DNA of 64,000 bases from Polytrichum commune (Eukaryota > Streptophyta > Polytrichopsida > Polytrichales > Polytrichaceae): the NCBI GenBank assembly GCA_950295325.1, contig OX485805.1, positions 6,760,501-6,824,500 on the forward strand, given 5' to 3'. A program made the position numbers and the translations under genes. Shown piece after piece: positions 854 to 26,809 of this stretch; position 1 is the first letter of the stretch; each line of letters starts with the position of its first letter. The notes beneath the pieces were generated by a model that searched no databases, was not told the DNA's origin, and saw only the letters and a program-made list of their open reading frames with translations.

Positions 854-854
854 G

Positions 855-5870: not shown

Positions 5871-5875
5871 TTTGG

Positions 5876-6035: not shown

Positions 6036-6039
6036 ATTT

Positions 6040-6740: not shown

Positions 6741-8470
6741 TAGCTTAGGTTGTGCTTAGGCCTAAATCTGAATTAAAAGTGAAATGAGTTTGGGTTATAT
6801 GTAGCATAGGTTGTGATTAGGCCTGAAATTTGAAATGTTCAAAATAGTGTGTCTCGGCCCCGAGAGACCCTAGAGAAGGTCTTAACTGGGTTGAACTATG
6901 TTTGAAATCAGTTGGGTAAGGATGTTGGTAAGGCTCATATAAGGCCTGAAATTAAATCTCTTAATGTTAGCTTTGTTCAGAATAGTGTGTCTCGGTCCCG
7001 AGACACCCTAGACAAGGGTATTAAGTGGGCTGAATTAAGTGTGAGATCAATTGGCTTAGAAGAAGCTTAGGTTGTGATTAGGCATGAATCTGATTTAAGT
7101 GTGAAGTTGGTAAGGCTCATATAAGGCCTGAAATCAAATCTCTTCATGTTAGCTTTGTTCAAAAAAGTGAGTCTCGGTCCCGAGACACCCTAGACAAGGG
7201 TATTAAGTGGGCTGTCTTAAGTTTGAAATCAATTGGGTTGTAAGTTGATAAGGTTGTGATTAGGCCTGAATCTGATTTAAGTGTGAAGTGAACTTCGGTT
7301 ATATGTAGCTTAGGTTGTGATTAGGCCTAAAATCTGATTTATGTTTGAAGTAGATAAAGCTGATATAAGGCGTGAAATCAAATTTTTGAAAGTCACATTT
7401 GTTCAAAAAAGTGTGTCTCTGTCCCGAGACACCCTAGACAAGGGTATTAAGTGGGCTGACTTCAGTGTGAAATCAATTGGTTTGAAGTTGCTTAGGTTGT
7501 GATTAGGCCTGAATCTGATTTAAGTGTGAAGTGAGTAGAGGTTATATGTAGCTTGTGTTATGATTAGGCCTGAATCTGATTTAAAGTTGAAGTGGGTAAG
7601 GCTCATATAAGGCATGAAAGCAAATCTCTTAATGTTAGCTTTGTTCAAAATAGTGTGTCTCGGTCCCGAGACACCCTTGAGAAGGGTATCAAGTGGGCTG
7701 ACTTAAGTGTGAAATCAATTGGGTTCTAAGTTGATATGGTTGTGATTAGGCATGAATCTGATTTAAGTGTGAAGTGAGTTTGGGTTATATGTAGCTTAGG
7801 TTGTGACTAGGCAAGAATCTGATTTAAGTGTGAAGTGGGTAAGGCTCATATAAGGCCTGAAAGCAAATCTCTTCATGTTAGCTTTATTCAAAATAGTGTG
7901 TCTCGGAACCGAGACACCCTAGACAAGGGTATTAAGTGGGTTGAGTTAAGTGTGAAATCAATTGGGTTTGAAGTCGATAAGGTTGTGATTAGGCCTGAAT
8001 CTGATTTAAGTGTGAAGTGAGCTTGGGTTATATGTAGCTTAGGTTGTGATTAGGCATGAATCTGATTTAAGTGTGAAGTGAGTTTGGGTTGTATGTTGCA
8101 TAGGTTGTGTGTAGGCCTAAAATCTGAATTGTTCAAAATAGTGTGTCTCGGTCCCGAGAGACCCTAGAGAAGGTCTTAACTGGGTTGAACTATGTTTGAA
8201 ATCAGTTGGGTTAGGATGTTGGTAAGGTTTTAGTTAGGCCAGAAATCAATCTTAAGTGTGAAGTGAATTTGAATTGGATGTTGGTTATAATGTGCTTAGA
8301 GTTGAAATCTGAAATTTCATTGTTGGTTAAATGATTATTGGATTGTAATTAGGCCTGAAATCTGATTTGAGTGTGAATTTGGTTTATATGCCAAGATGTT
8401 GATTACGCCAAAACATATTATTTGACTTTGAATTTAGTTTGGGTTTGGTTGTTGGGAGGGCTGTGATTAG
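6741..8470. repeat. Intronic repeat array 1: ~61 bp module with palindrome TGTCTCGGTCCCGAGACA
   Basis: A diverged module of about 61 bp ('gttgtgattaggcctgaa...gtgaagtgag...') repeats throughout. A palindromic module recurs with the 8 bp arms TGTCTCGG / CCGAGACA around a 2 bp centre, at or near 6850, 6988, 7170, 7415, 7656, 7899 and 8144. Intervals of about 183 and 244 bp are three and four modules. Some copies carry point changes (for example 7168 and 7901). The array ends just before a good acceptor at 8514, so it lies in an intron, or upstream of the first recognised exon, of the ParB-like gene. A related array fills the intron at 18.3-21.8 kb. Confidence 0.88.
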
Positions 8471-8691
8471 GCCTGACATCAAAAGTGGAAAATTAAGCAT
8501 TGGATTTTCCGCAGAGTTTGGGGGCTACCGATCTTGAAACTTACGTTTCAAATGCTATTGAAGGCATCATGGACCATGATGAGCAGAATGTTGGGGAAGA
8601 GGTAAGTACTCACTTAGTTACATAATGTGTGAATTAGTTGTACCTTATGCCATGCAGCTTTGTGTCTTAAATACATACCTGTGTTTTGTAG

Positions 8692-9334
8692 GTCGAGTGC
8701 CCCACCCCCCAGGACTCACCGGCAGCGACTCAAGCTTCAAGAGAGACTGCAATTGATCTTGACAGTTCTGATGAAGGACAGGATGAGGATGAAGATGGGC
8801 TTGGAGATAAGGATACGTTTGACGGGGATGAAGATGAATTTAGATCCCGTCAGAAATTGAATTCCGTGGCCATGATCTCTCAATTGAGAGTCAAACCTTT
8901 CAGTTCAATATTCCTTTATGTAGAATGCTTGCCATGCCTATGGTGAGGCCAACACTCTCAATTGATCTTGATAAATTAGAGCAGGAGTTTGTCCATGGGT
9001 ATAGAGAGGGCTCCTCAGTTTTTTATGTGACATTAACAAATGAAGAAGGTAAAACATAGGAGGTGTCTGAAGCTGATAAGGCATCCTGGGGTCCCATTTG
9101 GAATTCAAAAAATGAAGAATTCAATTCCTATCTTCAGTCTGTTCCGGAGTTAGCCGGTTTCAAGGATTTGATGTTCTTTGTATGTGACGGTAACCATAGG
9201 CGTCAGGCATGGTTAAATCATATTGAAAGACTTCACAAAACAGATGAGGCCTGGCATTATATGGTGGATAGCATCCTACTTGACACAAAAGGCAAAGTTG
9301 GGGTTGTTATGCAAGTGATGCATAACATCAACAA
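8692..9334 (+). pseudogene. Exon with acidic linker and ParB/sulfiredoxin-like DGNHRR motif
   Basis: The exon opens with an acidic, low-complexity stretch (DLDSSDEGQDEDEDG). The frame then shifts by one base near 8840 and continues as a folded-looking region through a TAG at 9057. The strongest signal is FFVCDGNHRRQAWLNHI (DGNHR at 9186-9200), followed by a long helix-rich stretch ending VMQVMHNINK. In ParB and sulfiredoxin folds a G.HR/DGNHR motif contributes to the nucleotide-binding site, and bacterial and phage methyltransferases are often fused to such a domain. The exon ends with 'aa|gtaagt', which joins in phase to the exon at 17424 across the nested insertion. The domain call rests on one motif plus the context of the methyltransferase downstream. 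Confidence 0.5.
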
Positions 9335-9373
9335 GTAAGTTTTGTTTATTAATTTGTATTTCTTTTATGTAAA

Positions 9374-9392
9374 ATACTTCTTGTTATACCAT
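9374..9392. repeat. Target-site duplication, left copy (19 bp)
   Basis: The 19 bases atacttcttgttataccat are identical to 17362-17380. They bracket the outer insertion. A duplication of this length fits target-primed reverse transcription better than cut-and-paste transposition or LTR integration. Confidence 0.9.
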
Positions 9393-9809
9393 GAAAACCT
9401 CTCCGAGGTAATTAAAGAAAAAGGTAACCAATACAAAACCCCGAGGGGCGAGACCCGGCACAACCGGGGGCCCCAGCCCGCAAGCCGGTGACCAAACAAA
9501 AAGGGAGAAGGGCGGGAGCCCTCTCCCTGGAAAGTCAAAGGAAAAAAACACACACAAGGCCCAAGCTACCGGGCGGGAAAGACAGGGCAGATGCCACTCG
9601 TCGCCCGAGGGATGCACCGTCACGGGGGAGGGGAAGCGCAGGCAAGAGGCGTGCAGCAATCAGCCAGGAGGGGGGAGGATGGAACCAATTCAATCGTAGG
9701 CATTGAGGAGGTCAATACCCTCCTTCGTGTGATCAAAGTCGAAGTTGAACCGGGTGCGGTTCAGATCCGCGGCCCATTCGAACATACCGAGGCACTACTA
9801 GAAAATCGA

Positions 9810-10260
9810 CAAAAAACGACTTTATTTATGACTGTTATTTGAGTCATTGAGGACTACAATGACTATTAATTTTTGTGTTATTACGGACGAGTAGTAACGG
9901 ACAGATAGTCGTTGGGGACGTGACGTGGGAATTTGGATGATATAGTCGTATAGGACAGTCGTAAACATGGACAGCGGACGTGGCAAACCGAGATGACTGG
10001 TATTTCACGTGGCATTACGTGGCATCCACGACACGACCTCACATCCAAATCATCATCTATCGTGGCATCCACGCCACAACCTCACATCCAGGTTATCATA
10101 TGACGTGGCATACACGCCACGTCATTACATCCAGGTCATTATCTGACGTAGCATGAACGCCATGTCAACAAACACGTGGCTCCCAAGTCAATTGGCCACG
10201 TCATCATAACATGTGGGCAAGTAATATAATGCCATGTGTTCATAAACATAGTTCTTGTGT
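9810..10260. repeat. CACTA left subterminal repeats
   Basis: Short words such as acgtggcat, gccacgtca and 'catccaggt/catccaaat' recur many times in both orientations across this stretch. CACTA elements typically carry such subterminal arrays as transposase-binding sites. The right subterminal region (16200-16560) carries related cacgtca/acgtcat words. Confidence 0.7.
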
Positions 10261-10269
10261 AATCATTTT

Positions 10270-10460
10270 CCAGTTGTATCCTAAACGCCTATTATGTTAC
10301 TATTGAATGACTATTGAATGACTAATATGTTACTATTGAACGACTATTTAATGACTATTATGTTGCTATTGAATGACTAGTGAACGACTATTGAATGACT
10401 GTGGAACAATTATTGAATGACTATTGAATAACTATTATGTTACTATTGAACGACTATTGA
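10270..10460. repeat. Minisatellite of 'actattgaatgactattatgtt' type inside the CACTA
   Basis: Variants of 'ctattgaatga' and 'ctattatgttactattgaacga' repeat about twelve times. The word 'tgaatgact' returns at 11261-11280. No coding sense. Confidence 0.75.
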
Positions 10461-11610
10461 CTGATTGCATACTAGTGACATGTGCACGGGTTTAGGCCAT
10501 CCATCAGCATATTGAGGCCTGGTTTACTCATTCATTAATAGGCCATCTGTCAACACATTGAGGCCCTGGTTACTCAACGACTACAAAATTGCTACTCAAC
10601 GATTTCAAAGTTGTTAATCAATACATGCCAATGACAATGAGAAATTGCGATCGTATTTGAAAAACAATACATATTTCAACTTTATTCATCTGTTCCCAAT
10701 AAAATGCGTGGGCTCAAAATTTACAATACGGAATCCCTCTATATCCTCCTTGATAAGTTCGTGGGGGGGAAAATCATGCTGCTCTCAGGTTCCTTTCATT
10801 CCAAAGTGTAGAGCCTCCCACCACATCTTTCACTAATCATTGGTCTCCGTCCTCACGTGGATATGCAAGTTTCACGTCACCTAGGTAAGCAGTGGTCACG
10901 TCCACTTTGTAGCAAAACTCCGGAATGACCTTAAAATGAAACTTATCCACACCCCCCACACCGCTGATTTTACCGATGGTCACCTTTCATCTCTTGTTTT
11001 TCGGGCTCATTATATGCACGGATTGCCCAACATTGAACTGCACCCATATACCATCCACAACACAATCAATGGCATACCTCATACAATGTAAGTATCTAAT
11101 TAGCAATGTGTCAGCAATCAGGGCTTCATGTGGTACTAACCAATGTTTTCGTTGCCTTTCAATGTCACTTCCATACATGATGAGGAAACCCACACCAAAC
11201 AATGCATACGACATTTATACGGTTCTAAAAATGTTCAAGGATAGATTGCTTAAGGACTGTTGAATGACTGCTGAATGACTGCTAAAGGGTACTCGGAACA
11301 AGGTTAGAACTGCAACAAGTTTGAGCTTTTGTTTTATGGGACATATTTGACTTATCATTAGATCTTCCAACTTAAGAACCATTTTTCACCTTGCTATCAC
11401 AGGTTGATACCTTACTACTGTATACTACGTTGTCTCAATTGAAGCTTCTCAACGGTCAGGCTTTCAGAAGTTTGATGTACGTGAAAGCTTGTCAACTCGA
11501 AATCGAGACAACAACTTGGGCCCATGTAAAGCAGGCCTAAGGTGGCTTTAATTCCTAAAACAGTAGATGTACTGACCCACCATTACTCTCCCAGCGATGA
11601 AATGTGAATT
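10461..11610. other. CACTA interior between left repeats and LEA14; no clear gene
   Basis: This part includes a duplicated phrase 'aggccatc...acattgaggc..ggttactca' near 10492-10575. Short open frames (for example plus 10976-11263) have no motif I recognise. A fragment of a captured gene is possible, but I cannot name one. It may also hold the 3' flank of the LEA14 gene, which reads toward it. Confidence 0.35.
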
Positions 11611-13229
11611 TCAAATAGACTGCAGAAACCAAGAGAAAGAAATTAGAAAAGTATACCTCCTCATCTTTGCCCTTCAGAGTTGTCTCACTAGATTTGCTGA
11701 AGGGTAAATGCATGGGTCCAAAGGGCGTGTCCACCTCGACGCTCCCTGTCATTGCATACCCAGTGCCCCTTCCTCGTATGATATCCCACAGTGCACCACC
11801 AAAGTCTTTGTGTCGGAATTTGATAGGAACTTGCAAGAATCCAGTGTCATCACCCTTCACGGTGGTTGCTTGCTCAAGATTTGCTTCACCAATGCTGACC
11901 TTGGCAAGTTGAAGATCATACTTGAATGAAATCATCCCTTTCAAAGAAATACCAACACACCAAGTCTTAGATGATATACAAATCAATTGCATCAACTGAT
12001 TCTCTCTAACTAACCAATAACATCTTCAATATACCAATCATCACTATCGGTAGTAACTCTATATGACTGATTAAAGAGGAAGAGGAAACTATTTAACATG
12101 ATATGTAACTTTGTTTGTAAGAACCAAGGATTAGACACTAAATGTGTAGATTGTACCTATGTCAAAGTGATTCATATTCTTGAGGCTTAAATGCAAGGTA
12201 GCAGCTGTCTCTTCCATAGAAAGGTGGTCCCACACCACTTTCTCCAAGTCCACATCTGGCTTGTGAGGAATAGGAATCTCGCCTCTCTTCTCCAAAGGCA
12301 AGGTGAGCCTTCCAAGAACAGGGACATCGGCAACCAATGCCACCTTCAATTCCCACCAGATATACATCACAATCAGATTGGTCAGTTTCATGAAAACTTT
12401 TGTCTAGACTACTGCATCTTATCAAAGAAGAAACAACAAGTTTGATGCAGTTTTCAAGAAACATGATAATCTACATATATGTTCCTGAAAACAGGACAAA
12501 ACCAAAGGAGAGAATCACGGAATTTCAACAACATGGTACTTAGAAAGTGTTTAAATACACAATGATATTATTATTACAAAAACCATCTTTTGTCCTTGAT
12601 TCATGAATGAGCGGATCTAATGCTTAAGTCATGAAGATGTAGGATGGCAGGAAAAATGAAACGACCAAAGCACTTTCAAGTCACCAACTCCTCCTATGAA
12701 TTTATACAATTCCAAACCACAAGAATAGGACCACCTCCAGAATTTGTAAGTCACAAACCTTTACAAGATAAGGAATAATTTGACCCGGCTCAATATCGTC
12801 AAAGGTATCCACAATGTCCTTGTAGATGAGTGTCAGAGGGATCTTGATGGTCTCTGATCCATGAGCATGAACTGTGCCAGCATCTGGAATGGTGCCTGAG
12901 CACAATTTGCGACCATCGCTGGATATGTCATAGATCATATCAAGTAGAGGAATGGGGATGGGGTTGGGGTTAGTGATGAGGACATCAATGATGACTTCGG
13001 CACGCTGTGTGTTGATGACAGGGAGATGGAAGCTTGAGATATCAGCATCAGGTTTTCCCCACCTAAAAGCTCCACCGATAGCCTTGCCAACGTCTTTGAA
13101 AAAACCAAGAACCCCACCTTCATCCTTGTCTTCCCCCTCTCCTTTATGAGAGTTCCTTGTTCCCCTGTCTTCAATATACACTTCCCTGAGGCTTTCCTCC
13201 ACATCCGTGGTGTCTCTCTGATCTTCCAT
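11611..13229 (-). CDS. LEA14-type (LEA group 2, WHy-domain) desiccation-related protein carried by a CACTA element
   Basis: Four exons join in frame: 13229-12759, 12343-12157, 11937-11657 and a 9 nt exon 11619-11611 with the stop, 948 nt or 315 residues in all. All introns are GT-AG. The start MEDQRDTTDVEESL follows an intron-like acceptor upstream. The protein shows two LEA_2/WHy repeats. The first contains EVIIDVLITNPNPIPIPLLD and SSDGRKLCSGTIPDAGTV. The second spans VLGRLTLPLEKRGEIPIP through KDFGGALWDIIRGRGTGY and VDTPFGPMHLP. Length and order match the plant two-domain LEA14-like proteins of about 325 residues. Family members are soluble beta-sandwich proteins linked to drought and desiccation tolerance. 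No frame lesion is visible, which is unusual for a transposon-captured gene. Expression cannot be judged from sequence. Confidence 0.88.
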
Positions 13230-13301
13230 AGTCCCTGAGGTTCCTCTTCTTTTCTTTCCTGCAGTTGAATAACCAATTTGATAAGCACCTACCAAAACCA
13301 C

Positions 13302-13851
13302 AATTAGTTATCATGTTGCATATCCTTCATTTCAACTCAGAGTGACATTGTGTTCTCAGAAGGATGCAAATTTATCCCTCTAACAGCACAATCATCTATA
13401 GATGTAGGTCACTACTGTAAATAGAACTACTCTGTTGGAACAAACTAAGGTATTGGTCACATTTCTGCATCCAGACATGCCAGAAACATCGACAACCTCC
13501 AAACACATCAGGCATGAACTTCCATGTTTGCGTTCAACCGCTACGGTTGAGAATGTAGTTAAAATAAACAATGAAAAAAGCCAATGGAAACTCTCTAATT
13601 CACTTCTAGGGGATTTGAATTATTGTATTTACACACACAGGGTATACAGCTGGAGATGACTACATGCAACTCACAAACGCTACATAGTCTCCAAATAACT
13701 AAGGCGCAAGTTTGAATGAAGATTCACTTTTGTCAGGAATCAGATGATTCTAAGACAAATTTTCAAGAACTTCATGTCGCATGCCAGAGAATCTTACCAA
13801 AATCGCACTCAAACTCTTCTCGAGGGTTACGATGTCGTGTGGCCCTGCTCT
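13302..13851. other. 5' flank of LEA14 inside the CACTA; no gene seen
   Basis: Short frames only (for example plus 13435-13659), without motifs. This stretch probably contains the captured 5' UTR, an upstream intron and possibly the promoter of the LEA14 copy; an acceptor-like 'ctgcag' on the minus strand lies near 13261. Confidence 0.4.
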
Positions 13852-14552
13852 GCTGCTTCTAAGCTCAAATAAGCTCTTAGTTTGAACTTAACCTAAATCA
13901 ATGAACACACAGAGTAAGAAAGCAGCAACACCTCCTCCACACTTACTTTGAGAAATCAGTGGTCCTAGAATTGATTCCATATTGTGTCAACAAGCCGGAG
14001 CTCTGCGCATGTTCCAACATGGTGTCGTCCGACAAAGCAAACTCTAATGCATCGCATTTAGCAGGGGGAGACTGGATTAAGAACCAAGTCGCAATTACAA
14101 ACTTGAAAGAAGCTGCAACACATCCTGACTGGTTGTAGATTTCGCAAAATGTAGTGAAATCAACACTCTACTACACGAAAGGAGGCTCGACTCTTTATCG
14201 TACAGCTGGATTCCACAAAGTAGCCAACTTACAGACGTGGAGAAAGACGCTTTACAACATTACAAATTGGTCGGTGCTCTTGCACCGACCAATTGAAGAA
14301 ACTACAACATTGCAGCCTAAGCTCCGAAGCTCAAATATGCTCGTAATTTGAACTTTACCAATGGCAATGAACACACAGAGTAAGAATAAGCAATAACACC
14401 TACGGACTTGATTTGAAAAACCAATGGTCCTACAGTTGCTTCCACATCCCACAAAGCAAGCTCTACTGCATCGCATTCAACAGGGGAGGGACTGGGTCTA
14501 GAACCAAGTCGCAATTGCAAACCACAAACAAAGCTGCAACACACCCGGACAG
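13852..14552. repeat. Diverged direct duplication (13852-14133 and 14318-14552) inside the CACTA
   Basis: Both halves share, in order, 'aagctcaaataagctc', 'aatgaacacacagagtaagaa', 'gcatcgcatt', 'aaccaagtcgcaatt' and 'gctgcaacac'. Divergence is moderate with several indels, so the duplication is older than the intron duplication at 3.3 kb. A short hairpin-like 'aattggtcggtgc...gcaccgaccaatt' lies at 14265-14294 between the halves. Confidence 0.75.
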
Positions 14553-15335
14553 TATTTATGAAATCATTCGCGTCGTTTTAGACAAATCTATGGAATATAC
14601 CTCAAATTAGTAAAGAAAACCCCAAAAGATGTTCAGCATGTACCCGGTTGGACTTGGACACACTTAAAACCTCGACCAATTAATGCCCAAAAATCCCCCT
14701 AAGCCACTGACCTAGTGGGTACTTTGTGCTTCGAATGAGTCCCAAAAGTCATGGAATCACATTGCCACACCTCTTTCAATATGTTCTCTCAACATCATAT
14801 TATGCGTTCATCAAACTACTTCTTACCTGGTAGCAGAGGTCAACATGATGCGATTCACCAGCCCAATATTGACTTGCAAGTATAAAACTAATTCTTGGAG
14901 ATGATGCTGGACGTGGACTTGTAATATGGCTCCAAGTCATGTGAGATTCACCCAAAAGTGTTGCTTATTAATGAACTCACACCTTGAGTATTGAATAAAA
15001 CATTCATGGATCAGTTACCTACTTGACCGGCAGTCCTCATCTCATACTTTTACAAAACTTCACAATGTAAGCAAACCTAATGTTCGAGGTTAAAACGTAA
15101 GCAAATTTGGAAAGAAAAACCTCAACATCCTTACATCGTGTGGAAGCTTTGCCTTCCGCACCCACCAATCAACAATGATTGTAAAGACAATGTTGAGACT
15201 GGAATTGTCAATGTTGAGACTGGGTTTGTGGAGATGGTCTAGCTTGATGATAACACGATCAAAAGCTTCTTGACTCCAGAAATTACTTTACTTTGAGAAC
15301 ATTTTGGTTCTTGCAGTGAATACAATTGAAGAAGC
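14553..15335. other. CACTA interior with a fragment of an ACCGGTT-type dispersed repeat
   Basis: The stretch 14575-14705 resembles 39385-39500 in the same order (atatacc, aaaccc/aaaccgg, acatgtacccggttggacttg, atgcccaaaaatc). The rest shows no gene. Both copies probably belong to one dispersed repeat family. Confidence 0.5.
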
Positions 15336-15417
15336 TTAGCTTAAACCATTATCCCCAATAACGTCAGAAATGGCAGCCAAGCATATGTACATCTCTAGTA
15401 TGGAGGATGTCAGAAAG

Positions 15418-15822
15418 TTTACCGAATATGGCCCAGCTTTAAAGATGTTGCATAAATTGGCTTTCCAGCCTTCCCTAGAACAAACTCCGTCGACCCTCCA
15501 CCAATATCCACCACCAAGACAGTCTGGTTGTAAACCGGAAGAGCCTGCAGCACTCCCTGATAGATTAAGCAATCCTCTTCCCATGACACGCATCTCAGCA
15601 TTTCGAGTCTGTGCCAAGATTTTAAAGCGCTTCATGGCAGCCAAGGCACGCTCCTCCGCATCCGGAGTGATGACACTCATATCTGGACTGCCGCTGCCAA
15701 GTCGAACATCTTCTTTTCCTGTATCAATAAGCTGAAACCGGCCTTGGTTGTCATCTCGCACAACCATCATGTGGAATGAGTTTGTGCCCATGTCCACAAC
15801 TGCATGCCAGCATCTTCTCCCC
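15418..15822 (-). pseudogene. Ppx/GppA phosphatase fragment captured in the CACTA, frameshifted
   Basis: Read on the minus strand, an acceptor-like 'aaattgcag' near 15823 is followed by HAVVDMGTNSFHMMVV, the N-terminal phosphate-binding segment of the exopolyphosphatase/guanosine pentaphosphatase family (ASKHA fold). Then come GRFQLIDTGKEDVRLGSGS and a helix ending RFKILAQTRNAEMR. The frame then changes and continues with IYQGVLQALPVYNQTVLVVD and IGGGSTEFVLGKAGKP, the second conserved nucleotide-binding segment. About 40 residues normally between the two parts are missing, so an exon or internal segment was lost. The C-terminal half of the enzyme is absent. It is a non-functional captured piece; the frame open to 15336 continues into unrelated sequence. 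Confidence 0.82.
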
Positions 15823-16200
15823 TGCAATTTAGATATGCTCTTCATCAACACACACAAAATAGGGGGAGGAAATGACTCTGTTGTTGCCACCAGTGTGAAT
15901 TATGGTCTTGCTTCATTGAGCTGTGAGTAACAGAGTTTTTTTCTACAGCTTCAACAGGTCCTACATTCTGTGCAACAAGAGGAGATTGCACTCTTCGAAT
16001 GGTTTTCGCAAACAGGGCCCATCATCCCCTGTTTCCAAACCTCCCAAGAGCTTAAACCCTAGAGGAGGCCCCGAGCCCTTAAACCCTAACAAGGGTGCTC
16101 CCGAGGGTGAAGGAGAGAGATGAAATCTCCAACGTCCACGTATGATCTCTATGTATGTTACTTGCCAACATGGCAAGTCATTGAGGTTGGAAGTCGTAGT
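15823..16200. other. CACTA interior right of the Ppx fragment
   Basis: This probably starts in the intron captured with the Ppx fragment. Around 16018-16120 a GC-richer block contains two AAACCCTA words. No gene can be supported. From 16200 the right subterminal repeats begin. Confidence 0.4.
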
Positions 16201-16617
16201 CATTTTTTTGACACGTCACTATTATCGAGAATAATGTTCATTTAATACATTCCTAATTTCCACATCATTGGAGGGACGTAAGTGCCACATCACATATTTG
16301 TGTTATTACTAAGTAATAATATACACGTAGTCGTTAAATCACAACCAGATAATGACTAATAATTAGCCAAGTCATGATATTCTATCCACGTCATACACGA
16401 ATGGATGTAGTGGATGATACATGGTAGACAAAAAAATGAGTATGTTGTACGGTCTTCAACAAAGTTCATCATAAGTCATTTAAATGACTTAACAATGACT
16501 CACATGTTGGCCACGTCACACAAACTGAGTTGGGTAGGCGTCACAGTCGTTTAATGAGTTGTTTAGGACAGCGAGTCATTGATACCATGGTTGGAATGGA
16601 CAAGGTTTCTTGTAGTG
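16201..16617. repeat. CACTA right subterminal repeats and terminal inverted repeat
   Basis: Words like gacacgtcac, cacatcat, aagtcattta and acgtcatac recur, and the element ends with gtttcttgtagtg at 16605-16617, the inverted copy of the left end. Confidence 0.75.
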
Positions 16618-16620
16618 AGG

Positions 16621-17339
16621 GTGGAGCCAGAGGTAAACACCCAAGAGGTGTCAATCATGCGAAGGCATTCCTCTTTAGAGAGAGGTCGCTCAAAAGGCAG
16701 GGCCTCTAACAATTCCTGGCGCCGATTGTCTTCGATCTCTTTCAAGAGTTCATCCACATCCTGCGAGACCTTAGCATCGAATTCGGCCGCGGTGAGGCCC
16801 AGGCGACGATGAATGAAGCGGTAAGGGTCGGGTTCCGGGGCCGTGGCCGCGGTGGCTTTGTAGCGCTCGAATGGCGAGGGTAGGGGCCGGTGAGGGAGCG
16901 TGAAGGTGACTCGATCCGCCGGTAGGTGAGTCGTGATAGGAGGCCTAGGCTGTCCCTCTGAATCTGTACGGCGATTCAGTGATGGGATGTCCCTGCGGCC
17001 AGAGGATGATGGAGGGGAGTGGGGGATCCTCACAGGGGACGAGAACGTTCCAGAAGGCGGCCCTATCGTGTCATCCTCCTCGCACCGAGCGCGGGGTCCG
17101 AATCCACATCGGACCTTTGGCCTGCTTATAGGTCGTGCTCCATAATTCCCAGGTAATCGTGTCCCGTCCACTTGAGCAGATGGAGGGAGGTGGATGGTGG
17201 GAAAGGAAGAAGGTGAATTTTCTTCCTGTGTTGTTGGTGAATCGTCCGCAATCGTGTGAGGTTCGGTGTCGTCCCCTCTGTTGTTTCTGGAAGGGTGTGA
17301 GTTTGCGGGAGCACCGTTTCTTGGGTCGGCTGGTTGCAC
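16621..17339 (-). CDS. Retroposon-borne proline-rich open frame, interrupted by the CACTA
   Basis: On the minus strand an open frame starts at the ATG at 17339 and is rich in Pro, Ser, Arg and Thr (PPSSSGRRDIPSLNRR). It then has a short ordered-looking part (RRLGLTAAEFDAKVSQDVDELL). It runs into the CACTA at 16617. If the CACTA and one AGG are removed, the same frame continues on the other side from about 9792 to a stop at 9692-9690, adding a few tens of codons. That continuity shows the frame was open when the CACTA landed. It has no domain I can name. It may be an ORF1-like nucleic-acid-binding protein, or chance openness of GC-rich sequence. Confidence 0.45.
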
Positions 17340-17361
17340 GTCCTGAGCATGGAGGTATCTG

Positions 17362-17380
17362 ATACTTCTTGTTATACCAT
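17362..17380. repeat. Target-site duplication, right copy (19 bp)
   Basis: Identical to 9374-9392. The host intron resumes here and reaches the acceptor 'ttgcag' at 17423. Confidence 0.9.
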
Positions 17381-17423
17381 TAATGTCATGTGCTAATCCG
17401 CCCTTTTTGATTGATAATTGCAG

Positions 17424-18241
17424 GCATACTGAAGACTCTCACGTCAAGACCAACTTTGTTCACACCCTTTTTAGGATTCAAAAGTATGGTCTTATGCCAA
17501 TCGAACATTATCAAGACATATTGACTCCATCAGAGATGAAGAGGTGCAAGAGAACTCAAAATGCCAAAAAAACTTGGTACACATTGAATCTTCAAGTATT
17601 CACGAACTTCATCTTCCGGGTATGATCTCTATAATATGTACTACATTGTTTTAATCACTAACATATTGTCATTATCTAAAATCAAATGATCACCTAGGTT
17701 ACAGTATACTTGGATGACTAACTAAGTCTACCCCTGTGCAGCATGAACTTGGACTTGCTGCAGATGAGGGTGTCCGACAACTTGTGGAGCAATCAGATGT
17801 AGAAGTGTCCGCCGCTGAAAAAGCAACCGCTATGAAAGTTGCTACAAAGAAAAGAGCCAAGGCACTTCATAAGAAAATGTCGAAACTAGTTGCTCTGGCA
17901 AACCCGGACTTGACGGATGGATGGCTTCGAGAGGTATAAACTCTACTCTACAAGCACATTTTTCAATCTTCATGTTCTTTAATGACCCCTGAGATTCTAA
18001 TAAATAGCTATATGTTTCACAGATTGGACGTCACTATACTCTTAACTCAATTACACCCGAGCTCAATATGAAGAAATTGCAGTTGATCGTTACTGCAAAA
18101 GCATCGGCCGCTTCTAAGGTTAAATGGTTGGAATATTTAAACTCCTCTGCATCTACACGTGAGGCCCGCAAACTGCCCCCTAAGCCCACCAACGAGGAGA
18201 AACTGGGTGCATTTCTAGCTAAGGCGTGCTTTTGGGCCGGA
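17424..18241 (+). CDS. Middle exons of the ParB-like/methyltransferase gene
   Basis: Three exons (17424-17619, 17742-17933, 18023-18241) have good splice sites and compatible phases. They encode a helix-rich region, starting HTEDSHVKTNFVHTLFRIQK, then a Lys/Ala-rich segment (KKRAKALHKKMSKLVALA) and a final part ending AFLAKACFWAG. The first part directly continues the ParB-like exon across the 8 kb intron. I do not recognise a named domain. The position after a ParB-like motif would fit the helical DNA-binding part of ParB proteins, but no helix-turn-helix signature is clear. No frame lesion is seen in these exons. Confidence 0.6.
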
Positions 18242-18279
18242 GTGAGTTAATACTTCCCAATCAATTCGTTTAATTTGTT

Positions 18280-21200
18280 TGTCTTGAGGCCTGAAAACTG
18301 TTTGGGTTATATGTTGCTTAGGTTGTGATAAGGCCTGAAATCAAATTTCTGACATTAAGATTTGGTCAACAAGGGTCTTAAGTGGGCTGAACTAAATGTG
18401 AAATCAATTGGGATAGATGTTGCTATGGTTGTGATTAGGCTTGAATGTGATATAAGTGTGAACTGAGTTTGGGATATTTTTTGCTTAGCTTGTGATGATG
18501 CCCGACAGCTGATTTCAGTGTGAAGTGAGTGATGGATAGCCTTTGGTAAGCTTGTGAATAGGCCTGAATCTGATGTGAGTGAAATTTAAGTGTCATGTTC
18601 TAAAGGTGTTTAGTAGGCCTGGAATCAAATTTCTGATAGTAAGATTTGGTCAATAAGGGGTGTCTCGGTCTTGGACCCTAGACAAGGGTCTTAATTGGGC
18701 TGAAGTAAGTGTGAAATCAATTGGGTAAGATGTTTCTATGGTTGTGATTAGGCTTGAATTTGTTTTAAGTGTCAAGTGAGTTTGGGTTATATGTTGATAA
18801 GGTTGTGATTAGGCCTAAAATCTTATTTAAGTGTCAAGTGTGTTTGGGTTATATGTTGCTTAGGTTGTGATTAAGCCTGAAATCTGGTTTATGTGTCAAG
18901 TTGTTAAGGCTGCTATTAGGCCTGAAATCAAAATTTTGAAAGTCACATTTGTTCAAAAAAGTGTGTCTCGGTCCCGAGACACCCTAGACAAGGGTATTAA
19001 GTGGGCTGACTTCAGTGTGAAATCAATTGGTTTGAAGTTGCTTAGATTGTGATTAGGCCTGAATCTGATTTAAGTGTGAAGTGAGTAGAGGTTATATGTA
19101 GCTTATGTTGTGATTAGGCCTGAATCTGATTTAAGTGTGAAGTGGGTAAGGCTCATATAAAGCCTGAAAGCAAATCTCTTAATGTTAGATTTGTTCAATA
19201 TAGTGTGTCTCGGTCCCGAGACACCCTAGGCAAGGGTATTAAGTGGGCTGACTTAAGTGTGAAATCAATTGGGTTATAAGTTGATAAGGTTGTGATTAGG
19301 CCTGAATCTGATTTAAGTGTGAAGTAAATTTGGGTTATATGTTGCTTAGGTTGTGATTAGGCCTGAAATCTGATTTAAGTTTGAAGTTGTTAAGGCTGAC
19401 ATAAGGCCTGAAATCAAATTTCTGGAAGTCATCTTTGTTCGAAAAAGTGTGTCTCGGTCCCGAGACACCCTGGACAAGGTCTTAACTGAGCTGAATTATG
19501 TGTGAAATCAGTTAGGGTAGGATGTTGGTAAGGTCTTTGTTAGGCCTGAAATCAACCTTAAGTGTCAAGTGAGTTTGAATTGGATGTTGTTAATAATGTC
19601 ATTAGGCCTTAAATCTGATTTAAGTGTGAAGTTGGAAATGCTGATATAAGGCCTGAAATCAAATTTCCCAAAGTTAGGTCTGTTCAAAATAGTATGTCTC
19701 GGTCCCGAGACACCCTAGACAAGGGTATTAAGTGGGCTGACTTCGGTGTGATATCAATTGGGTTAGAAGTTGATAAGGTTGTGATTATGCCTGAATCTGA
19801 TTTAAGTGTGAAGTGAACTTTGGTTATATGTTGCTTAGGTTGTGATTAGGCATGAAATCTGATTTAAGGGTCAAGTGAGTTTGGGTTATATGTTGCTTAG
19901 GTTGTGATTAGGCCTGAAATCTGATTTAAGTTTGAAGTTGTTAAGGCTGACATAAGGCCTGGAATGAAATTTCTGGAATTCAGCTTTGTTCATAAAAGTG
20001 TGTCTCGGTCCCGAGACACCCTAGACAAGGGTCTTATGTGGGCTGAATTAAGTGTGAAGTGATTTCAGATTAGAAGTTGATAAGGTTTTGATTAGGCGTG
20101 AATATGATATAAGTGTGAAGTGAGGTTGGGTTATATGTTGCTTAGGTTGTGTTTAGGCCTGAAATTTGAATTGTTCAAAATAGTGTGTCTCGGTCCCGAG
20201 ACACCCTGGACAAGGTATTAATTGGGCTGAATTATGTGTGAAATCAGTTAGGGTAGGATGTTGGTAAGGTATTTGTTAGGCCTGAAATCATCCTTAAGTG
20301 TGAAGTGAGTTTGAATTGGATGTTGGTAATAATGTCATTAGGCCTGAAATCTGATTTAAGTGTGAAGTTGGTAAAGCCGATATAACACCTGAAATCAAAT
20401 TTTTGAGAGTCACATCTGTTCAAAATAGTGTGTCTCGGTCCCGAGACACCCTTGACAAGGGTATTAAGTGGGCTGAATTAAGTGTGAAATCAATTGGGTT
20501 AGAAGTTGATAAGGTTGTGATTAGGCCTGAATCTGATTTAAGTGTGAAGTGAGTTTGGGTTATATGTAGTTTAGGTTGTGATTAGGCCTAAAATTGGATT
20601 TAAGTTTGAAGTAGGTAAAGCTGATATAAGGCCTGAAATCAAATTTTTGAAAATCACATTTGTTCAAAAAAGTGTGTCTCGGTCCCGAGACACCCTAGAC
20701 AAGGGTATTAAGTGGGCTGACTTAAGTGTGAGATCAATTGGGTTAGAAGTCGATAAGGTTGTGATTAGGCCTGAATCTGATTTAAGTGTGAAGTGAGTTT
20801 GGGTTATATGTAGCTTAGGTTGTGATTAGGCCTAAAATCTGATTTAAGTTTGAAGTAGGTAAAGCTGATATAAGGCCTGAAATCAAATTTTTGAAAATCA
20901 CATTTGTTCAAAAAAGTGTGTCTCGGTCCTGAGACACCCTAGACAAGGGTATTAAGTGGGCTGACTTAAGTGTGAGATCAATTGGGTTAGAAGTCGATAA
21001 GGTTGTGATTAGGCCTGAAATCTAATTTAAGTTTGAAGTTGTTAAGGCTCATTTAAGGCCTGAAATCAAATCTCTTAATATTAGCTTTATTCAAAATAGT
21101 GTGTCTCGGTCCCGAGACACCCTTGAGAAGGGTATTAAGTGGGCTGACTTAAGTGTGAAATCAATTGGGTTATAATTTGATAAGGTTGTGATTAGGCTTG

Positions 21201-21760
21201 AATCTGATTTAAGTGTGAAGTGAGTTTGGGTTATATGTTTCATAGGTTGTGATTAGGCCTGAAATTTGAATTGTTCAAAATATTGTGTCTCGGTCCCGAG
21301 ACACCCTGGACAAGGTCTTAACTGGGCTGAATTATGTGTGAAATCAGTTAGGGTAGGATGTTGGTAAGGTATTTGTTAGGCCTGAAATCAACCTTAAGTG
21401 TGAAGTGAGTTTGAATTGGATTTTGGTAATAATGTCGTTAGGCCTGAAATCAGATTTGAGTGTGAAGTTGGAAACGCTGATATAACGCCTGAAATCAAAT
21501 TTCCGAAAGTTAAGTTTGTTCAAAAAAGTGTGTCTTGCTCCCTAGATACCCTAGACAAGGGTATTAAGTGGGCTGACTTAAGTGTGAAAGCAATTGGGTT
21601 AGAAGTTGATAAGGTTGTGATTAGGCCTGAATCTGATTTAAGTGTGAAGTGAGTTTGGGTTATATGTTTCTTAGGTTGTGATTGGGCCTGAAATCATATT
21701 TGATTTTGAATTTAGTTCAGGCTAAATGTTACTTAGGTTGTGATTAGGCCTCAGCTGAAT
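18280..21760. repeat. Intronic repeat array 2: ~61 bp module, 244 bp higher-order unit, palindromes
   Basis: This is the same module as array 1, filling the intron between the exons ending 18241 and starting 21817. Palindrome starts lie at 18964, 19206, 19450, 19695, 20001, 20186, 20431, 20675, 20919, 21102 and 21286, with degenerate ones near 18657 and 21530. Intervals are about 183, 244 and 306 bp, that is 3, 4 and 5 modules of about 61 bp. The usual neighbourhood is 'gttcaaaatagtg' before and 'ccctagacaagggtattaagtgggctga' after the palindrome. Neighbouring units are often more alike than distant ones, as in tandem expansion. Open frames inside it (for example 20578-20796) are repeat shadows. 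Confidence 0.9.
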
Positions 21761-21816
21761 TGTGCATATGCGGTTATTTGAATTCGGGGAGCTTCTATTA
21801 TATTTTCTTTCCACAG

Positions 21817-22866
21817 ATATCCGAGCAGGCTTCTATTATCTATGAAGAAACAGTGCGTCAAGATAGACTGGTTATCAACTTTGAAGTACCCACCGAGCCC
21901 TTATCCTTGGTTGCATACATCGAGGATTGTAGAATGAAGTTATGGGACAATGCATTCCCCACCTTCTTTCGAGGGCAGGATGCTTTTAACAAAACTCACG
22001 AATTTCAGGGCTTCAAAGGAACTGACTTGATTGTGAGAAGAGTACTCTTTCGGTAAGATTTATCCTTCTCCAACTAGAATTCTTGTATTTGTCATATTGA
22101 TTTGGTTGTTTACATGGCATGTATTTTGATTGCAAGGTATATAACGATGAGGTTTTTTTTAACCCGCAGGTTTTTCAAGTACGAGCTCCTTGCAAAAGGA
22201 GCAATAACAAAAGAAGATCTCCCAATATTTCTCTCTACATGGCTTGACAGGTCGAACTCAACGTGCATGTTCTTTGCAAATCAGCAGCGGACGTGGTCTA
22301 CCTCGCATCTCACAGGAGGTGGATGGTACCTCGACTGTGCTCCTAGTTTCACTCCCTCCTTTGAAACTGAACTTAGGAAGTCGAGGGATGCAGTTGGTGA
22401 GTCTTGTGTTGAGATGGTTGATTTACAGGGCATTGAAGACGAGCACGAGAGGGCAAAGGCCCTCTCGCGACGTCTAGAAGAAGATAGGAAGAAAACGCTT
22501 AAGGTGAAGGAAGCTGAGGAGAAAGCGGCCCAGAAAGAGATGGCAAAACTCCACAACTCTCTGGAGAAGACTAACAAGAGGGGGAAGAAGAAGATGAACC
22601 CCCCTCCAGAGCCAGAATGTAAGAGCCCACCTGCGCCTAGTCCTACACATGACTCTGGTTCTCATGCTCCAATTCAGTCTAGAGGAACCAAACGCGATTT
22701 CTCCTATGAGCAGTTAAGCCAAGGAATCCCTGTTTTCACATCGGTTGAGGAGAATGATGGCCAAGTTGGGGAGTGGATTAAAAACTTCTCACTAGAGCAA
22801 GTCCTTGGTGGCGACACGGGCAGCTTGAGTCCATTATATGACGAGTTAAAGAGCTTCATTTCTAAG
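21817..22866 (+). CDS. ParB-like/methyltransferase gene: exons with coiled-coil and proline-rich linker
   Basis: Exons 21817-22052 and 22170-22866 join in phase inside an Arg codon. The first part looks globular (TEPLSLVAYIEDCRMKLWD), followed by FFKYELLAKGAITKEDLP and a tryptophan-rich stretch (TSHLTGGGWYLDCAPSF). Then comes a strongly charged coiled coil (EDEHERAKALSRRLEEDRKK), a Lys/Pro-rich linker and an end (KSFISK) at a GT donor. No catalytic motif is visible here. The coiled coil and linker probably separate the ParB-like part from the methyltransferase part and may drive oligomerisation. No lesion is seen in these two exons. Confidence 0.6.
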
Positions 22867-23039
22867 GTACCATACTGCTCAACAGCTTTGTTTTGTTTAT
22901 GTTTTCATTCAATTCTAATTCTCAAGCTGCGGAGTCCCATGAATGAGTTCTCAAGTTTCTTTCAATCATTCGTAGGTCATCATTCTCATTACAATGACAT
23001 CCAACACATTGCTTTGTTAGTTTGATAAATTTATTTTCA

Positions 23040-24144
23040 TGCGCAACACTCAAGTGACAAAGGCCGACGCTACAAAGGATCTGCTGCGGAAGTACCCTGT
23101 GTGGACTTGATTCTTGCAGATCTTCCAGAGGGCCTTCTTGTTCTAGGAATTTCGAATCCACCTTCGTCTATTCCCGCCTGGAACATAGAACCTGAGGATT
23201 GGTTTCAAACAATCTTTGATTTCGCAGACCATCACCTCCAAGACGATGGGGCGATAATTTTGTTCCATCCTTTTCGAATGTCTACGAAGTCAATCATTCT
23301 TGGGTACTGTTCCACGTATGGATTTGTTGTTCGCAAAGAGTGGTGGGGGATGAACAAGCTTCACCTGACGTCACCAATTAATCCAATCTTGACTGTGAGT
23401 TCATTTTATGATATGACTTATTGCTAATTTGATTGATAGCTGTATCTTATGTTATTAATCTTGTGAAACTAATCTTCCATTTCATTTGCTGGAATGTGCT
23501 TAATGATTTTTATCTTATTTCGTAAGTAAAGTAATTAACTGTTTTTGTAATCTGCAGACCATAGGGTTTGGAATAACTTTAGTTGTGAGGAGCATTCCGG
23601 AGGTGCGTGCTTCCAGATTTTCCTTTCAACATATCCCTGCACTAGACCGTCACGGGGTTGATGTGGCACGGGATGACATTCTCCAGAACTTGGTGTCAAG
23701 GGAGGATCAGTTAATGGATGGATCCACCCCTTGGCGTGGTCCTCGCGAAAAATCCCTCGCCCTTATACAGATGCTCATTCAGGCATCTTCTTCACCCGGG
23801 GATATTGTTCTAGACTGCTCTACAGCTACGGGTACGTTGAACATCTCTTCATGTTTAAGTAAATAACCGTTGACCATTTCATGCTAATTAATTTTTATGT
23901 TGTTTGAGAACTGAACTTCATTGTTTTTTGATATTGCAGGAGTTTCTATTCATGCGTGCCGCAATGTGAACCGTCACATTGCGGCATTAGAGGCTGACAA
24001 GGCAATTTTTGAAGCCTTGATCGCTCCTCTAATTCGATCTGCTTCGGCCATAGAAGTGAAATCAAGAGATGTTGTCATGTCAGAGGATCCAGATAGCGAA
24101 ATCATTGTTGTTCAGAAGATCGTGAAGAAGTCAAGATTTAGTAA
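23040..24144 (+). pseudogene. Beta-class DNA N4/N6 methyltransferase-like domain, degenerate and frameshifted
   Basis: The exon at about 23040-23394 starts TKADATKDLLRKYP (like the 'GDA...L..LP' that precedes motif IV). After a frame change of a 2 bp type near 23099 it continues DLILADLPEG, in the place of the catalytic (D/S)PPY motif IV. Then come a Rossmann-like strand (DDGAIILFHPFR) and GFVVRKEWWGMNKLH, typical of the segment after motif IV. The exon at 23558-23831 ends with PREKSLALIQMLIQASSSPG and DIVLDCSTATG. The exon at 23940-24144 continues VSIHACRNVNRHIAALEADK, together the AdoMet-binding motif I of beta-class enzymes (usually DPF.GSGT). Both catalytic PPY and the FxGxG loop are altered, so activity is doubtful even without the frameshift. 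Confidence 0.7.
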
Positions 24145-24153
24145 GTGAGTATA

Positions 24154-25200
24154 CAGTCTAACCTTGATAATGTCACCCTTGTTAATAGAACACCTTAATA
24201 TTGTCACCTAAAAGTTTGAAACCGATTTTCATAGTGTAAAACTCCCTCGTTATTATCCCTATCACCCTTGATAATGTCACTATTTTTTTTCAAAATCCGT
24301 AGTGTAAATGTGATAATATCAAGTATGGATGGATTGTATGGGTGGGCATGGGTTCGATATTATTGTTCATGGGTGAGCATGGGCTAAAGCAAAGCATATT
24401 GGGGGTCATTGAATGAGCTCTCATTCAATGCTTCGGCATAGTAGGATGCCTTGTGTAATTTCAAATTTGGTACGTGTTTCGGAGTCCAAATGCTCAATCC
24501 AAAATGGAGGAAGCAACTTTGGAATTGGGTAGACTCATCGCTGCATTAAATTTGGGTTTGGATGTTGAAGGCAAGCATGTAGAAAAGCTTTGTCCTTTGG
24601 AGTACATAAACATGGAAGGTGAAGATGATTTTGAGGTGGAATTTTCTACTGAGGAGCTTGTGCAATTAGTGCAAGATGGCGAACAGGTTCTTGATTCCAT
24701 GGAAGTGGACCCATTGATTATTGATAGCAGTGATGATGAGTCTAAAGTAGTGAAGCTAAGCGATGCACAAAAATATGCTAAAGATGTTTTGAATTTTATG
24801 GCTAGCCAAGGTTCTCAGATTTTCAGCACTCATGAGATGTTAGAAATGGAATAAATCCATGACAAACTCATTAGAATTGGTGTTGCACATTTAACATCAA
24901 CAAAACAATGTGAAATTAGAAGCTTCTTTGTCTCTAGTGAGAGGTCTTTACCTGATCTCAATGACACATTATGATGTGCTCTTGTTGTTATTCACAATTT
25001 TGAATTAGATTTTACATTAAAAAACATTGAAGTCTCGTATTTGTTATTTAAAAAAAAATTGTAATTATATTTTGATTTTCTACATATTTTTTGATAATAT
25101 CACATTATGCACAAAATGTGACATTATCAAGTATGTCACACCTTATTTATATCACACTTTTTGGTGAAACGGAGGGTGTGACATTATCAAGGTTAGGGTG
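24154..25200. mobile_element. Tigger/pogo-like (Tc1/mariner superfamily) DNA transposon, internally deleted
   Basis: Terminal inverted repeats of about 25 bp share CTAACCTTGATAATGTCAC: left from 24154 (CAGTCTAACC...), right ending 25200 (...GGTTAGGGTG). A TA target duplication flanks the element (24152-24153 and 25201-25202), as expected for this superfamily. The 1047 bp length is far short of an autonomous element. It lies in the last intron of the ParB-like gene, seven bases after the exon end at 24144, so the insertion came very close to the splice donor. Confidence 0.88.
24474..24854 (+). pseudogene. C-terminal remnant of a Tigger/CENP-B-like transposase
   Basis: The 126-codon frame ends with an acidic tail region (GEDDFEVEFSTEELVQLVQD, then VDPLIIDSSDDESKVVKLSD) and a helical end, as seen after the DDE domain of Tigger and CENP-B-like transposases. 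The DDE catalytic domain and the N-terminal CENP-B DNA-binding domains are absent, so it cannot be active. Similar sequence seems to continue past the stop at 24854 (HDKLIRIGVAHLTSTKQCEI). Confidence 0.6.
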
Positions 25201-25289
25201 TAGCTACTATTTCTACTACTAGTGATATATTTTCTTATTTGCTTTCATTTGAGGCGGTTTTATGACCATGTTGCCATTTGCATTTGCAG

Positions 25290-25581
25290 AAGCGGTAATT
25301 TGAGATACCCTAGTCACCGCCCTTTTTTTTGTGACCCTAAGTTCTATCCAAGCCCTCCAAAGTCATGGCGGCTCCCTTCATACGCAAATGACGTTGCCAA
25401 TGATTTAGCGGAAGGTTCATATCGTACATTTAGACCTAAGGAGTTGATGCTAAACGGTATAGAATATGTTGATTTAGAAGCTGTTGAGTCTGAGGATGAA
25501 GGTTCTTCAGATGCAGATAGTACAGATTCTAAAGTCTCTGTAGCATTATCTGAGCATTGTGATTTCGATTATATGTCTTAG
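25290..25581 (+). CDS. Last exon of the ParB-like/methyltransferase gene
   Basis: The acceptor 'catttgcag' at 25281-25289 joins in phase to the donor at 24144, giving FSKSGNLRYPSHRPFFCDPK. The exon continues with PPKSWRLPSYANDVANDLAE and an acidic, serine-rich tail to a stop at 25579-25581. The acidic tail mirrors the acidic N-terminus of the same protein. No domain is recognised. Confidence 0.6.
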
Positions 25582-26075
25582 TTAGAATTTTGTGTCTTAT
25601 TGCTTGTATAATAATATATTTTTGCATTTGATTGTTAATTTTCCGTTTAGTGCGGTAATCTTCATGGTTTTCCTTAGACAGTGAATTATATTTTGTAATG
25701 CCTTCTTACACTCTTACCCTAAACCATCATTCCACTCTATTATTCAATAAGACATAGAGGTAAACTACCTCATTATCCACCATAGCATCATCCATGTAAC
25801 AAAATTCAAAACAAAACCCAAAAAAAATAAAGAAATGTAGTTGTAAAAATATAGATCAAAACATGAAACAAAGACTAAGGAAAACTAAACCAAAAAATTA
25901 AAGATGATAAGTATAGAATATGAATACGTTTTTTAGAATTACAAAAAATACGAAGATAGACTAGAAGAAGAATGGAAGAATAAAAAAATCAAAAGATAGA
26001 ATGGAAGAAGAATGGAATAACCCAAAAAATGTTTGTGCCTAAAATATGGACATCATCCTATGTTTTTTGTTCAAA
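25582..26075. other. 3' flank of the ParB-like gene, A-rich
   Basis: No gene is seen. From about 25800 the plus strand is strongly A-rich, with repeated 'agaatggaagaa'. The 3' UTR and polyadenylation site of the upstream gene probably lie in the first 150 bases. Confidence 0.45.
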
Positions 26076-26640: not shown

Positions 26641-26809
26641 GAAGGTGCAAGCAAATACAGTATAGGTCCCTCACCCATGGTTATAGGTTCCTCAACCATG
26701 GTTATAGGTTCTTTTTGTCAATAAATATTTCAAAAGTTAGTTTTACACCGCGGTCATAGGGCATGTTTCACCACACAAAATTTCAATATTCTAGAAAACT
26801 TACCGCTCA

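Follow-up and report, generated by a model that had tools for sequence, protein, structure and literature searches.

A ParB-like and methyltransferase-like accessory gene on a DNA transposon of the moss Polytrichum commune, with palindrome arrays as candidate binding sites

Transposons of brown, green and red algae carry genes that join a ParB-like part to an N4/N6 DNA methyltransferase (PMC12477816). In the accessible part of that paper, the Sola1-1 element of Ectocarpus encodes a 1,104-amino-acid (aa) protein of this kind opposite its transposase, green and red algal transposon cases are cited, and the proteins are suggested to bind, and to mark, the element that encodes them; we found no mention there of palindromes or of a target site of the algal proteins. 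Here, we analyse a gene of the same plan in the moss Polytrichum commune. It lies in a stretch of 64,000 nucleotides, which we call the window (contig OX485805.1, or C3:6760501-6824500 of the 408-Mb source genome), and belongs to a DNA transposon, the window element, which has relatives across the genome and carries arrays of short palindromes. These arrays are a new handle on the mechanism of such proteins.

The moss gene resembles the accessory gene of the brown-alga element (Sola1-1_Ec32) in joining ParB-like and N4/N6 methyltransferase parts and in lying on the strand opposite to the transposase of the same element. It differs, in a comparison by description with the accessible part of the algal paper, in its land-plant-type genome, in its ends and 10-bp duplications, in a changed motif IV and in the palindrome arrays. 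A second likeness is with VANC of the Arabidopsis VANDAL transposons, also encoded by a transposon, which is sequence-specific and whose targets are often tandem repeats that vary between related elements; the accessible part of that study does not describe VANC as a ParB or methyltransferase protein, and the likeness is again one of description (PMC5735166). Fungal DNA transposons of different lineages likewise have a DNA-modification gene aboard, although theirs encodes a TET/JBP dioxygenase and not a methyltransferase-like protein (PMC12730594, accessible part). A survey of ParB folds reports phage fusions to N6_N4 methyltransferases, and its main text, as far as accessible, has no word beginning with transpos, plant, moss or algae (PMC12704722). 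In the literature searched, which mostly excluded subscription papers, we found no moss or land-plant case of a ParB-methyltransferase transposon. Seven phage ParB-methyltransferase fusions (loci L043, L045, L046 and L048 to L051) have a methyltransferase half that aligns with that of the moss family, but they show the DPPY consensus and are single open frames; ParB_N is matched in L043 (E = 5.7e-10) and L048 is annotated as ParB-like. Close relatives of these fusions were found at 3 loci in viral contigs and in 9 phage records, and none was found in the prokaryote genomes searched. Finally, the moss protein shares with CcrM and DpnA-type enzymes (PDB 6pbd, 5hfj) the order of motif IV before motif I, and differs from them in that DPPY is replaced.

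The ParB-like and methyltransferase parts form one gene, as an earlier note on the letters of the window had supposed. When the genome was searched with each of the two exons, ParB-like and methyltransferase, at least 150 places were found for either one. Among the 150 ParB-like matches listed, 87 are followed on the same strand, within 20 kb, by a methyltransferase match (median distance 5.8 kb), none is preceded by one and one has one on the opposite strand, whereas randomised places gave a mean of 0.7 and a maximum of 5 pairs. The last 21 ParB-like matches listed (43-47% identical) have no partner among the methyltransferase matches listed, and four of these loci that were read (L038 to L041) retain the exon order: L039, L040 and L041 match into the motif I region (L040 with an internal stop), and L038 only as far as a motif IV remnant. 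In four further lineages, the match extends as far as exon 9 (L052, L053 and, with stops, L054) or exon 8 (L055). Altogether, the N-terminal exon occurs at no fewer than 346 places, a union of three lists, two of them from searches with distant members; it took 65 of the 150 rows of one distant-member list, whose other rows were judged by eye to be places already in the ParB-like list.

Comparison of 14 loci yielded an 11-exon gene. We name the copies W for the window element, A4 (L004 and L009), B5 (L005 and L007), C6 (L006 and L008), D45 (L010 and L011), E30 (L012 and L013), F1 (L001), G2 (L002), H3 (L003), K18 (L014 to L016), M58 (L017), L38 to L41 (L038 to L041) and L62 (L062); minus-strand copies were turned before comparison, and the window element is oriented with its ParB-methyltransferase gene on the plus strand. 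In D45 and B5, all 11 exon matches are free of stops, and the joined proteins have 1,127 and 1,124 aa, respectively. A script requiring GT-AG ends, a consistent frame and proximity to the match ends resolved 42 of 48 junctions in W, A4, B5, C6 and D45, at corresponding places (the exon 7-8 junction of W is counted among them, but is doubtful).

The joined gene is the accessory partner of a divergent transposase-like gene within a DNA transposon, which bears out the suggestion of the earlier note that it might be part of a mobile unit. For 63 of the 150 ParB-like places listed, the closest transposase match listed within 15 kb lies upstream in divergent orientation, and other arrangements account for 4 (randomised total: mean 1.85, maximum 7). 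In the window element itself, the transposase-like match is found outside the window, at C3:6741469 on the minus strand and 28 kb upstream of the exon with the ParB-like motif. The frame of the transposase-like gene contains a zinc-binding-like region, FKGFMADSAQANWN and, beyond an intron, both CNLAESIHNKW and a terminus that looks SWIM-like by eye (CxC-CxH). The similarity between copies ends at the same right-hand point (26839 in W, 21122 in K18, 7863 in G2), and the sequence of this right end has an inverted counterpart at the left. A 33-bp terminal pattern occurs at 107 places in the genome with at most 3 mismatches, and the reversed pattern at none. Perfect 10-bp target duplications flank all 10 elements read at both ends, including the window element (GGACCATAGT on both sides); in an eleventh element, K18, the duplication matches at 9 of 10 bases.

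Mutator-like transposons make target duplications of 8-11 bp, and the duplication length and inverted ends of the window family are Mutator-like. Membership of the Mutator-like elements (MULEs) found no support in the transposase domain: the transposase pieces match no Pfam family, the MULE domain PF10551 included, and HHalign against six PF10551-positive frames of the same genome gave a probability of 0.3%. Since the transposase has no PF10551 match, we do not file the transposon as a MULE. A transposase frame of 2,527 aa was also discarded, being at least partly an artefact of stretches of N.

The copy in the window is decayed. Exons 2 to 11 are matched (Table 1), and the window yielded no match to exon 1. 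Exon 2 has an in-frame stop, and the intron that follows has grown to 8.1 kb, compared with 89-108 bp in D45, A4 and C6. The two halves lie 14 kb apart. Inside this intron, on the minus strand at 11555-13307 and 15336-15899, are LEA_2 domains (E = 3e-14 and 7.5e-11) and a weak Ppx-GppA piece (4.8e-4); these are host gene pieces, captured or inserted. The peptide strings on which the earlier note had relied are mostly present: FFVCDGNHRRQAW, with the ParB-like motif, lies at 9174-9212, DLILADLPEG at 23104-23133, and SPGDIVLDCSTATG at 23792-23833, the VS after it being supplied by the next exon across the intron 23832-23939. One did not stand: ADATKDLL (23063-23086) is in a different frame from DLILADLPEG, and the conserved protein reads SDKGRRYKGSAAEVPCV there.

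Sequence profiles identify the C-terminal half as a beta-class DNA amino-methyltransferase domain. Pfam N6_N4_Mtase matches the window copy (E = 4.8e-8), L39 (3.9e-9), L006 (6.7e-6), L41 (5.5e-5) and G2 (1.1e-5); three of these five joined copies reach the cut-off of 26.7 bits (window 33.6, L39 37.2, L006 26.7), and L41 and G2 fall slightly under it (23.6 and 25.9). A profile of the family matches CcrM over the whole domain (E = 1.8e-5; columns 40-235 to CcrM 30-231), with aDlPEgl facing aDpPYnl, and HHalign against the seven phage fusions gave a probability of 97% over 188 columns (E = 7e-11 in a single two-profile comparison). The class, the order of motif IV before motif I (seen in both the CcrM and the phage alignments) and the altered DPPY motif are thus as the earlier note had them. 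None of 15 aligned sequences keeps DPPY. The position reads D-[LIQ]-[PL]-[EK], with the first Asp retained in all 15: D-[LI]-P-[EK]-[GN] in 13 (DLPE, DIPE, DLPK), DQPE in G2 and DILE in A4. Elsewhere, L040 and L055 have DLPE and L038 has NIPE. The catalytic motif of the beta class is [DNS]PP[YFW]; given the change in motif IV, the protein is probably not a standard amino-methyltransferase. An AlphaFold model of this half was poor (predicted local distance difference test, pLDDT, 45.3), its Foldseek matches, which included METTL3 and CcrM, were weak and never reached E = 0.001, and we did not use it as evidence.

The N-terminal half is called ParB-like because of its motif and its analogy to the algal proteins, a weaker assignment. 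The ParB/Srx box is [DE]GxHRxxA. A ParB/Srx-like G[ND]HRxxAW box is retained in all 12 aligned sequences, with G, H, R, A and W identical in every row and K preceding G in L054. The homology is less firm, since HHalign, Pfam and PDB profiles detect the methyltransferase half: none of the tests applied (Pfam on each member, PDB profiles, HHalign, HMMER) gave a significant ParB match, and HHalign and HMMER comparisons with the phage fusions, the L044 proteins and E. coli YbdM were equally negative. In the test with shuffled controls, only shuffled sequences were listed, and true ParB proteins scored no better. Of 10 members, 4 weakly matched a ParB-like PHROGs family, the best E value being 0.039. 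The AlphaFold model (mean pLDDT 46.8, predicted template modelling score 0.36) was of too low a quality to speak for or against a ParB fold.

Pfam ParB_N was found at four places in the genome, all on small contigs, and the two that were read are bacterial or phage genes. The small contigs with such genes are C12 (L043), C23 (L044) and C10, and a ParB-methyltransferase fusion with DPPYG is among their genes. These contigs are probably assembly contaminants.

The accessory gene is under purifying selection between subfamilies, in both halves. Over all exons, the ratio of non-synonymous to synonymous divergence (dN/dS, Nei-Gojobori) is 0.10 for B5-W, 0.18 for D45-W and 0.13 for B5-D45, and it is 0.33 for C6-B5 and 0.27 for A4-C6. 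By part, B5-W and D45-W give 0.06 and 0.11 in the ParB-like part, 0.06 and 0.19 in the middle, and 0.15 in both pairs for the methyltransferase part (exons 8-10). Near-identical copies are close to neutrality (0.82 for D45-K18, 0.94 for D45-E30, their parts ranging from 0.54 to 1.56), and silent sites are saturated in pairs with G2 and in most distant pairs. Selection between lineages with near-neutrality after insertion is the usual picture for a transposon protein required for spread. The halves do not always share a history: between B5 and D45, synonymous divergence (dS) is 0.04 in the methyltransferase part and saturated in the ParB-like part, which indicates that gene halves were exchanged between subfamilies.

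Recent copies of the transposon exist. In the L041 family, 13 places (that of the query included) are 100% identical over the 197-aa query, and L041 and L062 are 98.8% identical over 6.2 kb. Among 51 ParB-like places of this family (the listed rows at 85% identity or more, some shorter matches being left out), a methyltransferase match lies downstream at 47, mostly 2.4 to 2.5 kb away, and a listed transposase is divergent and upstream at 13, with no other orientation among the matches listed. This family and the window family have similar right ends (CGCTCGCATACTAACTTTCCCC and CGCTCGCAAAATAGCTTTTCCC, respectively).

Tandem arrays of the elements, some in introns and some ahead of exon 2, contain palindromes, mostly with the core TCGGNNCCGA. 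Counting as a site this core extended by at least two further palindromic bases, the window element has 18 and the other 37 kb of the window none. Other copies have between 2 and 19 (A4 6, B5 3, C6 19, D45 9, E30 17, F1 11, H3 5, K18 10, L41 2, L62 16, L052 2, L053 2, L055 3, and G2 2, one of them past its right end), and the mean in dinucleotide shuffles is 0 everywhere except in M58 (0.05). No site was found in the stretches read of L38, L39, L40, L054 and the transposase stretch M58. The arms vary between copies (GTGTCTCGG, GTTTCGG, GAGGCCTCGG, CTGTCGG, GGGTTTCGG, GTGGTCGG).

The palindrome places listed are mostly close to these genes. The genome contains GTGTCTCGGNNCCGAGACAC at 997 places and the reversed control at none. 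All 50 places listed, which are on C1, have a ParB-like or methyltransferase place no more than 15 kb away, as is true of 2% of C1, and 36 have a listed ParB-like exon nearby, always at least 84% identical to that of the window. GTTTCGGNNCCGAAAC occurs at 405 places (control 3); 38 of the 50 listed are near these genes, and 33 have a ParB-like exon nearby, at 72-78% identity. This comparison omitted five C1 ParB-like rows (43-47% identity) and some C1 rows of the L041-family list. The same division appears when copies are sorted by the class of their N-terminal half. All nine class-1 copies (at least 84% identity; W, F1, D45, E30, H3, K18 and L069 to L071) have palindromes of the GTGTCTCGGNNCCGAGACAC type, and of the six class-2 copies with sites, A4, C6, L063, L066 and L067 have the TTTCGG type (L067 also GGGTTCGG). 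Palindrome type matches N-terminal class in 14 of the 15 copies with sites (Fisher p = 0.002, uncorrected for relatedness; G2 and the distant lineages are left out of the table), and it does so in copies with the methyltransferase half of the other class (D45, and K18, E30 and H3, which are close to D45). These patterns suggest that the arrays may be candidate binding sites of the accessory protein.

Repeats of another kind occur downstream of the gene in distant families, as heptamers (TCTCCGC, CTCACTG) in L039 (2334-2370, or 7631-7667 in the turned copy) and L040 (6771-6825). They resemble a GCTCACC run beside the right end of the window family.

Reasoning by analogy, we lean, with moderate confidence, towards a protein that binds the palindrome arrays of its own transposon while its S-adenosylmethionine (SAM)-fold half acts on or against host DNA marking. 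The N-terminal half would bind the arrays, as ParB binds parS or VANC the tandem repeats of VANDALs; the SAM-binding, methyltransferase-like half would act there on, or against, the marking of DNA by the host; and the element would then evade silencing or be marked for its own transposase. A more specific version, which we hold only tentatively, is that a phage-type ParB-methyltransferase fusion became a self-recognition system, in which a parS-like palindrome has a core, TCGGNNCCGA, that stays fixed and arms that diversify with the N-terminal half, the amino-methyltransferase chemistry having been lost in favour of a SAM- or base-reading switch against host silencing.

Several observations weigh against a self-binding protein. 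No profile method ties the N-terminal half to ParB. L40 and L054 have no site in 10 and 7 kb, the class-2 stretches L064, L065 and L068 have none in 3.6 kb, and L38 and L39 lack the core TCGGNNCCGA; these two instead carry 4 and 6 near-palindromic sites of the GGGTGCCGTAAACGACACCC type, respectively, in a 94-95-bp array. Among the 50 GTTTCGG sites listed, 12 lie over 15 kb away from any gene place compared. The class association has an exception in B5, which combines a class-2 N-terminus with GTGTCTCGG half sites (one perfect), and class-2 copies A4 and L063 have GCCTCGG-type sites too. Moreover, because the arrays adjoin exon 2, the association could arise without any binding, through common descent and the homogenisation of repeats. 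Selection on the methyltransferase part is also less clear when B5 and D45 are compared in that part alone (dN/dS 0.45, at the very low divergence given above).

These points give some room to the view that the palindromes are RNA hairpins, or mere satellite repeats travelling with the element, and that the N-terminal half binds no DNA, which we find rather doubtful. The arrays in introns would be transcribed along with them, ParB homology failed every profile test and some lineages have no such site in the stretch read; but the core TCGGNNCCGA recurs across lineages with different arms, which satellite drift alone does not predict. It is unlikely, on the evidence of motif IV, that the protein is instead an active DNA N6-adenine or N4-cytosine methyltransferase that puts a bacterial-type mark on the element. 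The chemistry of the class requires PP[YFW], and the changed position is common to all 15 aligned sequences and altered again in L038, although the first Asp is invariant among those 15, the surroundings of motif I keep the family character, and selection spans exons 8-10 in both comparisons with W. Self-modification is, moreover, what the accessible part of PMC12477816 proposes for the algal relatives. We also regard as quite improbable a role in transposition itself, catalytic or structural and with no epigenetic function, as a second transposase subunit on internal and subterminal repeats. Such a subunit would be kept alongside the transposase in many copies and selected between subfamilies, as this gene is, and two palindromes of the window element are near its 3' end; however, of its 18 sites, 16 lie inside the element, within introns or ahead of them, rather than subterminally, the transposase side of K18 has no site in 9.3 kb, and M58, a copy of the transposase near which no ParB-like place is listed, has none either (its stretch is partly N). 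Lastly, the spliced host gene that the earlier note had considered is refuted for the window copy, despite intron positions common to the copies and GT-AG ends, by its terminal repeats, target duplication and in-frame stop and by the presence of at least 150 copies.

Returning to the self-binding protein, a candidate target site together with a protein under selection means that a single protein and a single 20-bp DNA would suffice to test the proposal of self-binding and marking. With this moss, the ParB-methyltransferase gene plan extends to a land-plant-type genome, in which it occupies at least 346 places; both halves are under selection, and the active-site change persists across lineages. 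It bears on how transposons escape silencing in plants, beside VANC and the TET/JBP elements.

Table 1. Features of the transposon within the window (window coordinates; a point marks features without strand).
Feature	Position	Strand	Remarks
Transposon part inside window	1..26839	+	whole element C3:6739448-6787339, 47.9 kb including nested insertions
Tandem array upstream of exon 2	6854..8157	.	palindromes of GTGTCTCGGNNCCGAGACAC type; 6 sites with core TCGGNNCCGA
Exon 2 as matched	8901..9334	+	ParB-like motif DGNHRRQAW; in-frame stop 9057-9059
Enlarged intron	9335..17423	.	other DNA: minus-strand LEA_2 and Ppx-GppA pieces, minisatellites
Exon 3	17424..17619	+	
Exon 4	17742..17933	+	
Exon 5	18008..18241	+	
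Second tandem array, exon 5-6 intron	18408..21751	.	10 palindrome sites, 18968-21290
Exon 6	21817..22052	+	
Exon 7	22170..22869	+	acceptor 22170; tblastn match 22171-22869; scripted exon 7-8 junction doubtful here
Exon 8	23047..23394	+	methyltransferase motif IV region; DLILADLPEG instead of DPPY
Exon 9	23558..23831	+	motif I (SPGDIVLDCSTATG) at its end
Exon 10	23940..24144	+	VSIHACRNVNRHIAALEAD, remainder of SAM-binding region
Exon 11	25290..25575	+	C-terminus; stop codon 25579-25581
Two 3' palindromes	26308..26433	.	CCTCGGATCCGAGG core at 26308; AGGCCTCGGATCCGAGGCCT core at 26419
Right terminal inverted repeat	26807..26839	-	
Right copy of 10-bp target-site duplication GGACCATAGT	26840..26849	.	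locus L019

Two other regions of the window, both on the minus strand, contain long coding sequences. At 855-4705 are long open frames, four of them with no Pfam match over the cut-off, which perhaps belong to another mobile element nested in the transposon. At 55336-63153, matches to Pkinase (3.9e-38) and NB-ARC (1.2e-28) adjoin a very regular array of leucine-rich repeats (LRR). This looks like a resistance gene of the kinase, nucleotide-binding (NB) and LRR type, a class known from mosses.

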